64,000 nucleotides of DNA, from assembly GCF_002025205.1 (NCBI RefSeq), contig NZ_CP019947.1, positions 1,061,501 through 1,125,500 of the forward strand, in the 5' to 3' direction. The first letter of the stretch is position 1; each line of letters opens with the position of its first letter. The notes beneath the pieces were generated by a model. That model was not told the origin of the DNA, searched no databases, and saw only the letters and a list, made by a program, of their open reading frames with translations. Shown here in pieces: positions 30,485-35,272 of the stretch. Origin of the DNA: Pseudomonas sp. CC6-YY-74 (GTDB lineage Bacteria; Pseudomonadota; Gammaproteobacteria; Pseudomonadales; Pseudomonadaceae). The position numbers and the translations under genes are program-made.

Positions 30485-31846
30485 ATGTCCAAGCAAACCA
30501 TGCCACTGTTAGATACGGATACTGTCTTCCTTTCGAAGGCTGCCGCTACGGCAGCTGTGGCCGGGGTTTCGATCGAGACGCTGAACAGCCACTGCTTCTG
30601 CATCAGCCTGGACCCCGAGGCGTTGCGTCGTGCTCTGGAGTCGACGCTGGGTCAGCCCGGTCTGTTCGAACTGGTGCAGCAGCGCTGCCCTTATCTGTTC
30701 GCCGCCCATCCGGTGTTTATCGCCCCGGCGCATTTGCAGCGAATGGCCGAAGTGATCCGCGCCATCGAGTCGGTGGTGGCCTTGCCGGCCTATCGTGAGT
30801 TGGTGTTGGCCCGCTCGCCGGCCATCGCGGCGCATGATCCGGGCGGCGCCAAGGGGGTGTTCTTCGGCTACGACTTTCATGTCACCGAGGGTGGCTTCGG
30901 CCTGATCGAGATCAACAGCAATGCCGGCGGGGCGATGCTCAACGCCGTGCTGGCGCGGGCGCAACATGCCTGCTGTCCGGCTATCGAGCACATGCTGCCG
31001 CCGGCGTTGCGCGCCGAGACGCTGGAGGCTGGGATAATGGCCATGTTCCAGCAGGAATGGGCCTTGGCTGGTCATGCACGGCCGCTGCGCAGTATTGCCA
31101 TCGTCGACGAAGCGCCACAGCAACAGTACCTGTACCCGGAATTTCTGCTGTTCCAGCAGTTGTTCCAGCGCCATGGCTTGCAGGCGGTGATCGCCGACCC
31201 GGCCGAGTTGAGCTTGCAGGATGGCGTGCTCTGGCATGGCGAACTGGCCATCGATCTGGTCTACAACCGCCTGACCGATTTCGCCCTCGACGCCCCAGCC
31301 AATGCGACGTTGCGTCAGGCCTATCTTGAGCACGCCAGCGTGCTCACGCCGCACCCGCAAGCCCATGCCCTGTATGCCGACAAGCGCAACCTGGCGCTGC
31401 TCTGCGATGCCGAGCAATTGCAGGCACTGGATGTGCCCCTGGCCACTCAGGAGCTGCTCCTGGCGGCCATTCCGCATACCGAGGTAGTGGACCCGGCCAA
31501 TGCCGAGCGCCTGTGGCGCCAACGCAAGCAGCTGTTTTTCAAACCCAGCGCCGGTTACGGCAGCCGCGCCGCCTACCGTGGCGACAAGCTGACCCAGCGC
31601 GTCTGGCAGGAGATTCTCGCTGGCGACTACGTGGCCCAGGCTCTGGTGTTGCCGGGGCAGCGGGTGATGGCCAGCGATACCCCGGCGTTGAAATTCGATC
31701 TGCGCGATTACGCCTACGACGGCGCGGTGCAGTGGGTGGCGGCGCGCCTGTACCAGGGTCAGACCACCAACTTCCGCACCCCGGGCGGCGGCTTTGCGCC
31801 GGTCTATCCGGGGCCGCAGTCAGGTTGTGCGCCGGGCTGTAACTAG
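30485..31846 (+). CDS. ATP-grasp-like protein of unknown function
   Basis: A 453-residue protein without a signal peptide. An EINSNAGG segment at about residues 142-149 resembles the metal-binding Glu/Asn end of ATP-grasp folds. FFKPSAGYGSRAAYRGDKL at about 351-370 resembles the ATP-binding Lys and Gly-rich loop, followed by YVAQALVLP. The order is reversed relative to classical ATP-grasp enzymes, which suggests a circular permutation. Substrate unknown. It converges on the ars operon and ends one base before the arsJ stop. The ATG at 30485 is preferred to GTG 30473; no strong Shine-Dalgarno is seen. Confidence 0.7.
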   Translation: MSKQTMPLLDTDTVFLSKAAATAAVAGVSIETLNSHCFCISLDPEALRRALESTLGQPGLFELVQQRCPYLFAAHPVFIAPAHLQRMAEVIRAIESVVALPAYRELVLARSPAIAAHDPGGAKGVFFGYDFHVTEGGFGLIEINSNAGGAMLNAVLARAQHACCPAIEHMLPPALRAETLEAGIMAMFQQEWALAGHARPLRSIAIVDEAPQQQYLYPEFLLFQQLFQRHGLQAVIADPAELSLQDGVLWHGELAIDLVYNRLTDFALDAPANATLRQAYLEHASVLTPHPQAHALYADKRNLALLCDAEQLQALDVPLATQELLLAAIPHTEVVDPANAERLWRQRKQLFFKPSAGYGSRAAYRGDKLTQRVWQEILAGDYVAQALVLPGQRVMASDTPALKFDLRDYAYDGAVQWVAARLYQGQTTNFRTPGGGFAPVYPGPQSGCAPGCN

Positions 31847-33075
31847 TTAGCCGGCAGGGGATGGATCGGCATGCCTGGGCAGCCCCAAGGAAATCAGCGC
31901 GGCGAGCAGGACGAAGGCTGAGGAAATCCACAGGCAGGCTTGCAGGCCATAAGCCTGATAGACCCAGCCTGACAGCAGGGTGCCGAGCAGTCGGCCCAGG
32001 GCGTTGGACATGTAATAGAAGCCCACGTCCAGCGACACGCCGTCTTCCTTGGCGTAACTGACGATCAGGTAGCTGTGCAGCGAGGAGTTCACCGCAAACA
32101 ACGCACCGAACACCAGCAGGCCGCCGAGCAGCACCCACTGCACCGACAAGTCGCTGTACAAGCCCAGGGCGATGGAGGCCGGCAGGCCTGCCAGCGAGGC
32201 GGCCCAGACAAATGCGGCGCGCCCATCCGGTACCTGGCCGCGGGCGTTGCCGGTTATGGCTGGAGCGCAGGACTGAACGATGCCGTAGCCGATCACCCAG
32301 GCCGCGAGAAAACTACCGACCATCCAGAAATCCCAACCCAATACACTGGACAGGTACACCGGCAACGCCACCACGAACCAGACATCGCGCGCGCCGAACA
32401 AAAACAGCCGTGCGGCCGAAAGGATATTGATCGCCCGGCTTTTCGAGAGGATGTCGCGGAACCTGGGTTTAGCCTTGGCCTTGCCCAGATCCTTTTTCAG
32501 CAGCAGCAAACTGGCCAGCCAGATCAGCGCCAGCAACGCGGCCATTACCATTAGCGCAGCGCGAAAACCGAGCAGGGCGAGCAGGGCGCCACCGAGGAAA
32601 AAGCCGACGCCCTTGAGCGCATTCTTCGAGCCGGTCAGCAGCGCCACCCACTTGTACAGGGTGCTTTGCTGGCTGTCCGGAACCAGCAGTTTGATCGAGC
32701 TCTTGGCGCTCATCTTGTTCAGGTCTTTGGCGATACCCGACATGGCCTGGGCGCCCATCACCCAGGGGATAGTCAGCCAGGGGCCGGTACTGTGAGCATC
32801 AGCAGGGCGGCCACCTGCAGGCCCAGGCCGATATTCATGGTGCGGTTCAGGCCCAGGCGGGCGCCCAGATAGCCGCCGACCAGGTTGGTGATCACGCCGA
32901 AAATTTCATAGAACAGAAACAGCGCGGCGATCTGCAGCGGCGTATAGCCGAGGCTGTGGAAATGCAGCACCACCAACATGCGCAACGCGCCGTCGGTGAG
33001 GGTGAAGGCCCAGTAGTTACCGGTCACCAGCAGGTATTGGCGGACTTCTGGAGCGAGGCGGGACAGAGCGTGCAT
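31847..33075 (-). pseudogene. arsJ: ArsJ organoarsenical efflux permease, frameshifted
   Basis: ArsJ is an MFS permease that exports 1-arseno-3-phosphoglycerate made by the linked GAPDH. The N-terminal part (about 98 residues from ATG 33075; GNYWAFTLTDGALRML) and the C-terminal part (SGIAKDLNKMSAKSSIKLLVPDSQQ onward, key residues only) lie in different frames. They meet near 32777-32786, in the run CCAGGGGCCGG. One restored base gives about 409 residues, the normal length. Either a real inactivation or a sequence error in a G/C run. Confidence 0.85.
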
Positions 33076-33138
33076 ATAGATTCTGCAAAGGAACATGAAT
33101 GTGCAGGGCGGATATGCCACACGTGAGTTCTCAGTCAG

Positions 33139-34143
<1,005 letters not shown>

Positions 34144-34590: not shown

Positions 34591-34947
34591 TCAGCAGCAG
34601 GCGGCGAGGCGCTCGGGTCGCTCGCCCATGCCCTCGAGGCGCTTGGCGTCGGGGCTGAGCCAATGCTGGTTGGCAGCCAGAGTGGCGTCCAGCACGGCGA
34701 TCACCCAGTCCGGCAGGTTGGGGTGCAGCCGGTAATACACCCATTGACCCTGCCGACGATCTGCCAGCAGGCCGCAGGTGCGCAATTGTGCCAGGTGCCG
34801 GGAGACCTTGGGCTGGCTTTCGCCAAGGGCGCAGGTCAGCTCGCAGACGCAGAGTTCCTGCTCGGCCGTGATCAGCAGCATTAGGCGTACGCGGGTTTCA
34901 TCGGCCAGGCACTTGAAGACGCGGGTCGGGGTCAGGTGTGCTGCCAT
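34591..34947 (-). CDS. arsR: ArsR-family arsenic-responsive repressor
   Basis: A 118-residue winged-helix repressor. ELCVCELTCAL (about residues 31-41) carries the CVC As(III)-sensing pair plus a further Cys, and SQPKVSRHLAQLR is the recognition helix. It ends in a CC pair. ATG 34947 is chosen (MAAHLTPTRVFKCLADETR). It should repress the arsR-ynfA-GAPDH-arsJ transcription unit until arsenite binds. Confidence 0.92.
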   Translation of the reverse strand: MAAHLTPTRVFKCLADETRVRLMLLITAEQELCVCELTCALGESQPKVSRHLAQLRTCGLLADRRQGQWVYYRLHPNLPDWVIAVLDATLAANQHWLSPDAKRLEGMGERPERLAACC

Positions 34948-35272
34948 TGCGGTTCTCAACGTTAGCTTCCATCTTGATCCGCTCATCACCAGCCCCGGCA
35001 GATTTAGCGCATAGGTTGATGAGGCGCTCGCGCTCAACGACGTGTATGTCGTCGATTAACTTGTGGCCTGGCCGCGCAGACAAACAGCACACGAGTTTGG
35101 TTGGTCATCGCGCGACTCACAATATATGGCTTGGCGAATATACGTATAGCCGTATGTATCGTAAAGCCCGATCAGCTCCCAGGTGCTCGCCATTTTACGG
35201 TTCGCCAGCGCACGTGGCAGGTATAGTGCGAGCAGTGAATGGTTGTCCTCCTCCAATTTAGCTCAAGCCCCT
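34948..35272. promoter_or_regulatory. Divergent promoter region arsR / modE-like gene
   Basis: A 325-bp spacer between the divergent ars operon and the ModE-like gene. It should contain the ArsR operator near the arsR end. At its other end lies an imperfect palindrome, described separately. No gene is supported. Confidence 0.5.
35135..35161. promoter_or_regulatory. ModE-like palindrome
   Basis: CGAATATACG and CGTATGTATCG face each other across a 6-base centre (TATAGC), resembling the CG...TATAT half-sites of ModE boxes. It lies 112 bases before the ModE-like gene, so autoregulation is possible. The match is loose. Confidence 0.4.

Follow-up and report, generated by a model that had tools for sequence, protein, structure and literature searches.

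What does the gene that abuts the arsenic resistance operon of Pseudomonas sp. CC6-YY-74 encode, and is arsenic its proper context? The gene is located at 30485..31846 (+) of the window, the whole 64,000-nucleotide stretch of DNA analysed here. It is a real gene, with an ATG start, a TAG stop and a product of 453 amino acids, and its assignment as a putative permuted ATP-grasp ligase draws on the ORF, its relatives, an AlphaFold2 model and the Foldseek and VIA-align matches of that model. As stated in the initial annotation, the gene ends one base before the arsJ stop, the two being tightly convergent (31846/31847); this abutting pair is kept in the locus of L016, a relative 93% identical to the window protein (9362/9363). 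The larger arsJ frame (31847..32761, -) is a convergent neighbour and not part of the ligase, and it encodes an MFS transporter (Pfam MFS_1, 1.7e-16), to which the initial annotation gave the name ArsJ because of the neighbouring GAPDH gene of the ars operon (33139..34143, -; Pfam Gp_dh_C, 1.1e-60); an ArsR-family regulator gene of the operon is also present (34591..35037, -; Pfam HTH_5, 7.6e-14). The window arsJ (31847-33120, -) is split over two frames of 304 and 115 amino acids whereas that of L016 is a single frame of 409 amino acids, so that either a disruption or a sequencing error is probable in the window copy. Since the ligase gene is convergent with the ars operon, it is not a member of that operon, and its arrangement with arsJ is not one of co-transcription with the arsenic resistance genes. 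A promoter scan at the ligase gene found none, and the one terminator-like site detected lies inside the gene, at about the same rate as in shuffled sequences. Elsewhere in the genome there are two matches to ArsS (TIGR04167; G000:C1:4340848-4341771 and 4900691-4901613), one of them full and the other split over two open frames.

Sequence searches gave the protein no name. Scans of the window protein against Pfam and NCBIfam returned no significant family, and with PHROGs included the matches were of chance level; the initial annotation, to which no family name had come, is borne out for the libraries used (Pfam and NCBIfam). Neither PF03917 nor PF03199 (eukaryotic-type glutathione (GSH) synthetase) matched the window protein at E values up to 1, nor did PF03738 (glutathionylspermidine synthase), which also found no match in the window's own genome while controls gave signal. 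The protein alone matched nothing in a PDB sequence search, and a 90-row profile, searched with E up to 10, retrieved one chain, 3n6x (E 0.0048), labelled 'putative glutathionylspermidine synthase'. Comparing profiles with those of E. coli gss and ygiC yielded nothing significant. Among the relatives there are weak, sub-threshold Pfam matches to circularly permuted ATP-grasp models: CP_ATPgrasp_2 (PF14403) reached at best 20.6 bits over about 200 residues of relative L098, the curated cut-off being 32 bits, and the window protein was not among its matches. In relative L144 the matches are split: its N-terminal part resembles the last stretch of PF14397 (positions 233-256 of 278), while its C-terminal part resembles the beginning of PF02655 (18-113 of 160). 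Neither match reaches its cut-off, but together they would be the permutation made visible in sequence. The family therefore appears to be new as far as the libraries used go, and to lie outside the sequence models of GSH synthetase and glutathionylspermidine synthetase (GspS). Among the open-licence papers listed, no title or abstract names it, which does not prove the family undescribed. The one paper that combines arsenic, ATP-grasp and arsJ (PMC7826186) was set aside as unrelated, the parts of it consulted dealing with a MysC-like ATP-grasp in another algal gene cluster.

Relatives of the ligase are widespread. They occur in 56 of 298 genomes of the bacterium's own family and in 128 of 398 genomes sampled across the phylum; the species collection yielded 354 confirmed ligase stretches, of which the best 80 were kept, and 33 plasmid records carry relatives (E 1e-3). 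The plasmid copies among the rows listed are annotated as 'hypothetical protein' or not at all. Many relatives (L015, L029, L034, L051, L073 and others) have an extra conserved C-terminal region of 100-150 residues (ADWYVRL...VVNETY), which is missing from the window protein and had no Pfam match in the two proteins scanned.

The predicted structure was far more informative. The AlphaFold2 model of the window protein (85 rows) has a pLDDT of 91.4 and a pTM of 0.90, and its best Foldseek match is homoglutathione synthetase (3kaj/3kal, E 6e-14), the next ones being yeast and potato GSH synthetase, Cp1B, human GSH synthetase (GS) and E. coli GspS. VIA-align ranked YgiC and YjfC highest (Z 27.9-27.5; YgiC 27.9 over 345 residues at 3.3 A), with StGSS1 at Z 26.4 (371 residues, 3.5 A), human GS at 26.1 (384 residues, 3.6 A) and GspS at 25.7 (354 residues, 3.5 A). 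Matches of the predicted model to the permuted superfamily ranged from Z 22 to 28 over 322-388 residues; LysX, RimK and GshB, of canonical order, reached only 7.8-9.4 and covered residues ~200-445. The window protein is thus confidently predicted to be a circularly permuted ATP-grasp enzyme of the eukaryotic GSH synthetase/glutathionylspermidine synthetase superfamily, and on the model both this fold and the class, ATP-dependent amide ligase, may be taken as nearly secure. AlphaFold2 and the Foldseek and VIA-align comparisons agree here with the initial annotation, whose proposal of a ligase or a peptide- or amide-forming enzyme is, by the fold, probably right. A second model, for the more distant member L150 (39 rows, pLDDT 93.8), is closest to GSH synthetases: its best Foldseek match is human GS (E 2.3e-16), its seven top VIA-align rows (Z 26.7-24.4) are taken up by GSH synthetases and a GS-like protein, and YgiC, at Z 24.3, is tied with the last two of these seven.

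An alignment of 90 rows, reaching down to 29% identity to the window protein, contains 27 invariant columns, which is beyond chance: D130, H132, E142, N144, Q214, Y260, R262, D265, K300, K353, D405, R407, R421, G425, Q426, T428, G436 and ten others. A putative Mg2+ site (D130/E142/N144) is formed by GYDFHVTEGGFGLIEINSNAGG (residues 128-149; 30866..30931, +), all three residues being invariant in the 90 rows. In a local alignment these fall on the D, E and N of E. coli GspS with equal spacing (E 0.17, not significant alone). YNRLTDF (residues 260-266; 31262..31282, +), in which Y260, R262, D265 and F266 are invariant, provides a possible substrate-binding R262; ADKRNL (298-303; 31376..31393, +) contains the invariant K300, a putative ATP-binding lysine; and FFKPSAGYGSR (351-361; 31535..31567, +), with K353 and P354 invariant, would supply the ATP-grasp lid lysine and glycine-rich loop. 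It is around this last part that the sub-threshold Pfam ATP-grasp matches of the relatives are found. The C-terminal strands, R421 and a further glycine-rich loop lie within LKFDLRDYAYDG..AARLYQGQTTNFRTPGGGFAPV (residues 402-440; 31688..31804, +), where D405, R407, R421, G425, Q426, T428 and G436 are invariant. EINSNAGG (residues 142-149) does precede FKPSAGYGSR (352-361), by 210 residues, as the initial annotation had it, and the superfamily pattern, an E-x-N (E142, N144) ahead of the Lys/Gly-rich loop with E142, N144, K300 and K353 all invariant, is present. Nor is this order without precedent: eukaryotic GSH synthetase and glutathionylspermidine synthetase, whose structures the model matches along the chain, are known to have it. 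According to the excerpted text of PMC2845819, human GS binds the gamma-glutamyl part of its substrate via R267, S151, E214 and N216 and the glycine carboxylate via R450. By motif order alone, R267, E214 and R450 may plausibly correspond to R262, D208 and R421 of the window protein (position 208 is D in 89 of the 90 rows and E in one); R125 and S149/S151, which also belong to the gamma-Glu-Cys-binding residues of human GS, have no obvious counterparts in the window protein by motif register.

These structural likenesses bear on a first rival, a peptide-polyamine or glutathione-polyamine ligase of the YgiC/YjfC or GspS kind, which would couple spermidine or another amine to GSH or to a short peptide. 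YgiC and YjfC, the top rows for the window model (Z 27.9-27.5), are described as peptidylpolyamine synthetases in the portion of PMC12568646 consulted. YgiC is annotated as a peptide-spermidine ligase, the D130-E142-N144 spacing is that of GspS, and with gshB in the window's own genome, GSH would presumably be available there as substrate. We nevertheless consider this reading rather unlikely, as the two stand just ~1-1.5 Z units above the GSH synthetases, neither PF03738 nor the gss and ygiC profiles match significantly, and the carriers without gshB, described below, would be left unexplained.

Two cysteine motifs divide the family. Of the 64 rows of the metal subfamily, 62 have both cysteines of a CxC near the N-terminus (C37-F-C39; 30593..30601, +), and 61 have a CC after the metal site (C163-C164; 30971..30976, +), the exceptions to the latter being L115, L116 and L117. 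In the 26 other rows (25 of the distant clade, two of which repeat others, and L158) the CxC is gapped throughout, as it also is in L115 and L117, and C is never found at the CC. The family is accordingly made up, on its sequences, of two putative subfamilies, a metal subfamily with CxC/CC and a distant clade without. L115, L117 and L158 are the nearest proteins lacking either motif (47-53% identical to the window protein), and their loci (L173, L175 and L158) contain no copper, arsenic or mercury marker. All three are weakly placed on what is a quick tree, and L158 is counted as distant by its locus number though it is 47% identical to the window protein and sits on the metal side of the tree.

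The distribution of the ligase gave an unexpected clue to its substrate: it nearly complements that of canonical gshB. Called as TIGR01380 with E up to 1e-30, gshB is present in 265 of the 398 phylum genomes and missing from 109 of the 128 ligase carriers, none of the 65 f39 carriers having it. Nineteen carriers do have gshB, five of them with weak matches (E ~1e-57, under cut-off where listed); 246 genomes have gshB without the ligase, and 24 of the 398 have neither. The pattern represents few independent events, because the gshB-less carriers belong mostly to few clades, and many of them, including many distant carriers, are incomplete assemblies. The window genome itself has a strong gshB (E 3e-134), so the ligase fills no GSH gap there; 13 other carriers likewise have a strong gshB.

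We next looked in carriers for glutamate-cysteine ligase, the enzyme of the preceding step. The whole-genome search covered the two types PF04107 and PF08886. Among the 24 genomes of the set are 19 distant ones; PF04107 proteins of the GCS2 type occur in 18 of these, and the nineteenth, G298, has PF08886. In the same 19, a gshB match is missing from 16 and weak in three (G303, G333 and G386). Four of the PF04107 proteins (partial sequences) were checked as glutamate-cysteine ligases, and plant-type glutamate-cysteine ligase (TIGR01436) was best for all four, two being over and two just under the cut-off. The gammaproteobacterial genomes G558 and G647, which are without gshB, have a strong PF08886 GshA (E 6e-193 and 9e-203), and their ligases are the cysteine-less L117 and L115; the gene directly after gshA in both (loci L226 and L228) we take to be ApbE-like. 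A glutamate-cysteine ligase candidate is thus present in 18 of 18 gshB-less carriers tested (16 distant, G558 and G647), and also in all three distant carriers with a weak gshB match. Six other gshB-less gammaproteobacterial genomes have neither PF08886 nor the ligase. The third cysteine-less ligase, L158, belongs to a genome with gshB (G300).

A further link to gamma-glutamylcysteine comes from a remote homologue on a Selenomonas plasmid (24% identical over 274 columns, hhalign E 4e-15), where a glutamate-cysteine ligase, a MATE exporter and the ligase homologue form a run; this glutamate-cysteine ligase matches TIGR01436 at 1e-61, below cut-off. Kin of the Selenomonas homologue (21-25% identity) include members of Pantoea and Streptomyces clusters that also contain further ATP-grasp genes and transporters, and one of these clusters has an NRPS. 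Such biosynthetic-looking clusters would suit a different product made in metal islands and unrelated to GSH, either a metallophore in the form of a dedicated small amide or peptide, or a dipeptide resembling an osmolyte. So would Cp1B, which has the same fold and, in the part of PMC12568646 consulted, makes a pseudodipeptide, and an N-acetylglutaminylglutamine amidotransferase gene, hit in six loci and adjacent to the ligase in four (L034, L040, L051 and L096, directly downstream and co-directional; L034 and L096 confirmed as TIGR03104). Beside the metal-island copies, however, no widely recurring partner gene was found apart from the metal-resistance genes, and we regard such a product as a minor, rather improbable alternative.

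In the f39 clade the ligase has other companions. In eight of the nine f39 loci fetched (L144-L149, L159 and L162, the exception being L163), it is followed in the same direction by homologues of the TIGR04283 and then the TIGR04282 glycosyltransferase, with about -31 to +38 bases between ligase and glycosyltransferase. The pair of L144 exceeds the NCBIfam cut-offs for the two families, both labelled 'arsenosugar biosynthesis', and the pair is found in none of the 11 other loci fetched alongside (10 distant and L158). This suggests a joint product of the ligase and the two glycosyltransferases in the f39 clade. Of 24 carrier genomes tested, 21 have a match over cut-off to the radical-SAM enzyme ArsS, and 99 of the 117 phylum genomes with ArsS (E up to 1e-60) are ligase carriers as well. 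One could therefore imagine a role in organoarsenical metabolism, with the ligase acting on arsenosugar-type compounds or on phosphoglycerate compounds derived from ArsJ/GAPDH, whose genes are near the ligase in 19 and 18 of 109 loci, respectively. We think this most unlikely: the ArsS co-occurrence (99 of 128 carriers) comes largely from a handful of clades in which both genes are frequent, it drops to four of 16 in non-distant carriers, and a copper context is about twice as common as an arsenic one.

The latter point emerged from the neighbourhoods of the 109 non-distant (metal-subfamily) loci. By one marker set, whose classes overlap, copper markers are present in 43 of them, arsenic markers in 22, mercury markers in five and other metal transporters in 15, while 32 have no marker. 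The survey of homologues for repeated ars linkage, called for in the initial annotation, did find such linkage: besides the ArsJ loci just counted, the ars label changes at least 8 times on the tree, five of the changes being forced by strongly supported (starred) branches. In most Pseudomonas loci the ligase is convergent with the ars genes, in Lysobacteraceae and kin it is on the other side and divergent, and in L165 it is co-directional with GAPDH-ArsJ and just upstream of them. Arsenic as the main partner, by contrast, did not hold, and the 'arsenic only' reading was dropped on the neighbourhood count of 43 copper against 22 arsenic loci.

Metal resistance as such is overrepresented. A copper, arsenic or mercury marker is found in 67 of the 109 loci and in none of 20 controls, which are 20 loci from 20 carrier genomes; CopR/CopS-like two-component hits (control L201) and ppk2 (control L206) were excluded from the metal markers throughout. 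As the best 80 of 354 loci were kept, close relatives dominate this count, and the marker proteins were partly taken from plasmid loci adjoining the ligase gene. Without the 18 plasmid loci the comparison is 52/91 against 0/20 (Fisher p 5e-7), and with loci from genomes that also gave controls it is 10/16 against 0/20 (p 3e-5), p-values that are rough because the loci are mutually related. Among the annotated plasmid loci of close members, 14 of 18 have copper markers and two of 18 mercury markers, the neighbours including CopA oxidase, CopB, metal P-type ATPases, CueR, DUF305 and DUF2933; among the exceptions is an ATP-synthase cluster. The 32 marker-free loci and the many plasmid copies would agree with a passenger gene of mobile metal islands that has no metal role, but this is very unlikely in view of the marker-free controls from carrier genomes and the repeated change of the ars label on the tree. 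A recurring permease near the ligase (L068:6485-7579, -, with related frames in L024-L027, L052, L069 and L093) is partly similar to the SO_0444 Cu/Zn and SaoE efflux transporters, below cut-offs.

Taking these lines together, we propose that the gene encodes an ATP-dependent amide ligase for a gamma-glutamylcysteine/glutathione-type thiol, which would serve as GSH synthetase in place of gshB in the distant clade and is represented in the window by a metal-island version; to this reading as a whole we give an even chance. As a carboxylate-amine ligase, the enzyme would bind ATP and Mg2+ (D130, E142 and N144; K300, K353 and the glycine-rich loop) and activate a carboxylate as an acyl phosphate, which an amine would then attack to form an amide. 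The carboxylate would most likely be that of a gamma-glutamylcysteine- or glutathione-type thiol, our first choice of substrate, at about even odds, since it ties together the fold, the complementarity with gshB, the adjacency to glutamate-cysteine ligase in Selenomonas and the thiophilic metals. In the chromosomal distant clade the ligase would carry out the otherwise missing second step of glutathione synthesis, as a non-orthologous replacement of gshB; the CxC/CC version of the window and other metal islands may enlarge or modify the thiol pool against thiophilic Cu, As and Hg, a role of the cysteines, and a physiology, that we infer.

Several observations stand against the thiol substrate. 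The window genome has gshB, and so has G300 with its cysteine-less member; some substrate residues of human GS lack counterparts; for the window model, the GSH synthetases are slightly outscored by YgiC and YjfC, and no GSH-synthetase or GspS Pfam model matches. The amidotransferase gene follows the ligase in four loci, the fetched metal-island loci hold no glutamate-cysteine ligase of the three types searched for beside the ligase, and a plain GSH synthetase role leaves the f39 glycosyltransferase pair (8 of 9 loci) unexplained. A bolder version of the thiol proposal, tentative and with less than an even chance, is that the family constitutes a third kind of GSH synthetase, bacterial but of the permuted eukaryotic fold, that displaced gshB in whole classes of Pseudomonadota, while a mobile Cys version, derived from it, travels with Cu/As/Hg resistance and provides additional or altered glutathione as a defence against metals. 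If so, bacteria in which the canonical glutathione synthetase is not found do possess such an enzyme, built on a fold familiar from eukaryotes. Metal-resistance islands would then carry a thiol-making enzyme that has gone unnoticed under the annotation 'hypothetical protein' and could account for some of the tolerance to copper and arsenic.

Among known systems, CP_ATPgrasp_2 (PF14403) and 3n6x show weak profile similarity to the family (through relative L098 and at E 0.0048, respectively), all Pfam scores being below the curated cut-off. Cp1B, the ligase of fungal E-64 biosynthesis (9cjn), has the same fold at 15-17% identity and is likewise a stand-alone amide former, but it belongs to fungal secondary metabolism and no sequence-level link to the ligase was found here. 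GspS and YgiC/YjfC (PF03738) resemble the ligase in fold (Z 25-28) and in the spacing of the D, E and N metal motif, whereas the ligase has no PF03738 match, no room for an amidase domain and no significant gss or ygiC profile match. From the eukaryotic-type GSH and homoglutathione synthetases (human 2hgs, soybean 3kal, yeast 1m0w) the ligase differs in its low identity (8-16% in structural alignments), in matching none of their Pfam models, in a GspS-like metal-site spacing, in some substrate residues not found by register, and in its CxC/CC motifs and linkage to metal islands in bacteria; with them it shares, in the predicted models, the permuted order and a near-whole-chain fold (Z ~22-27).
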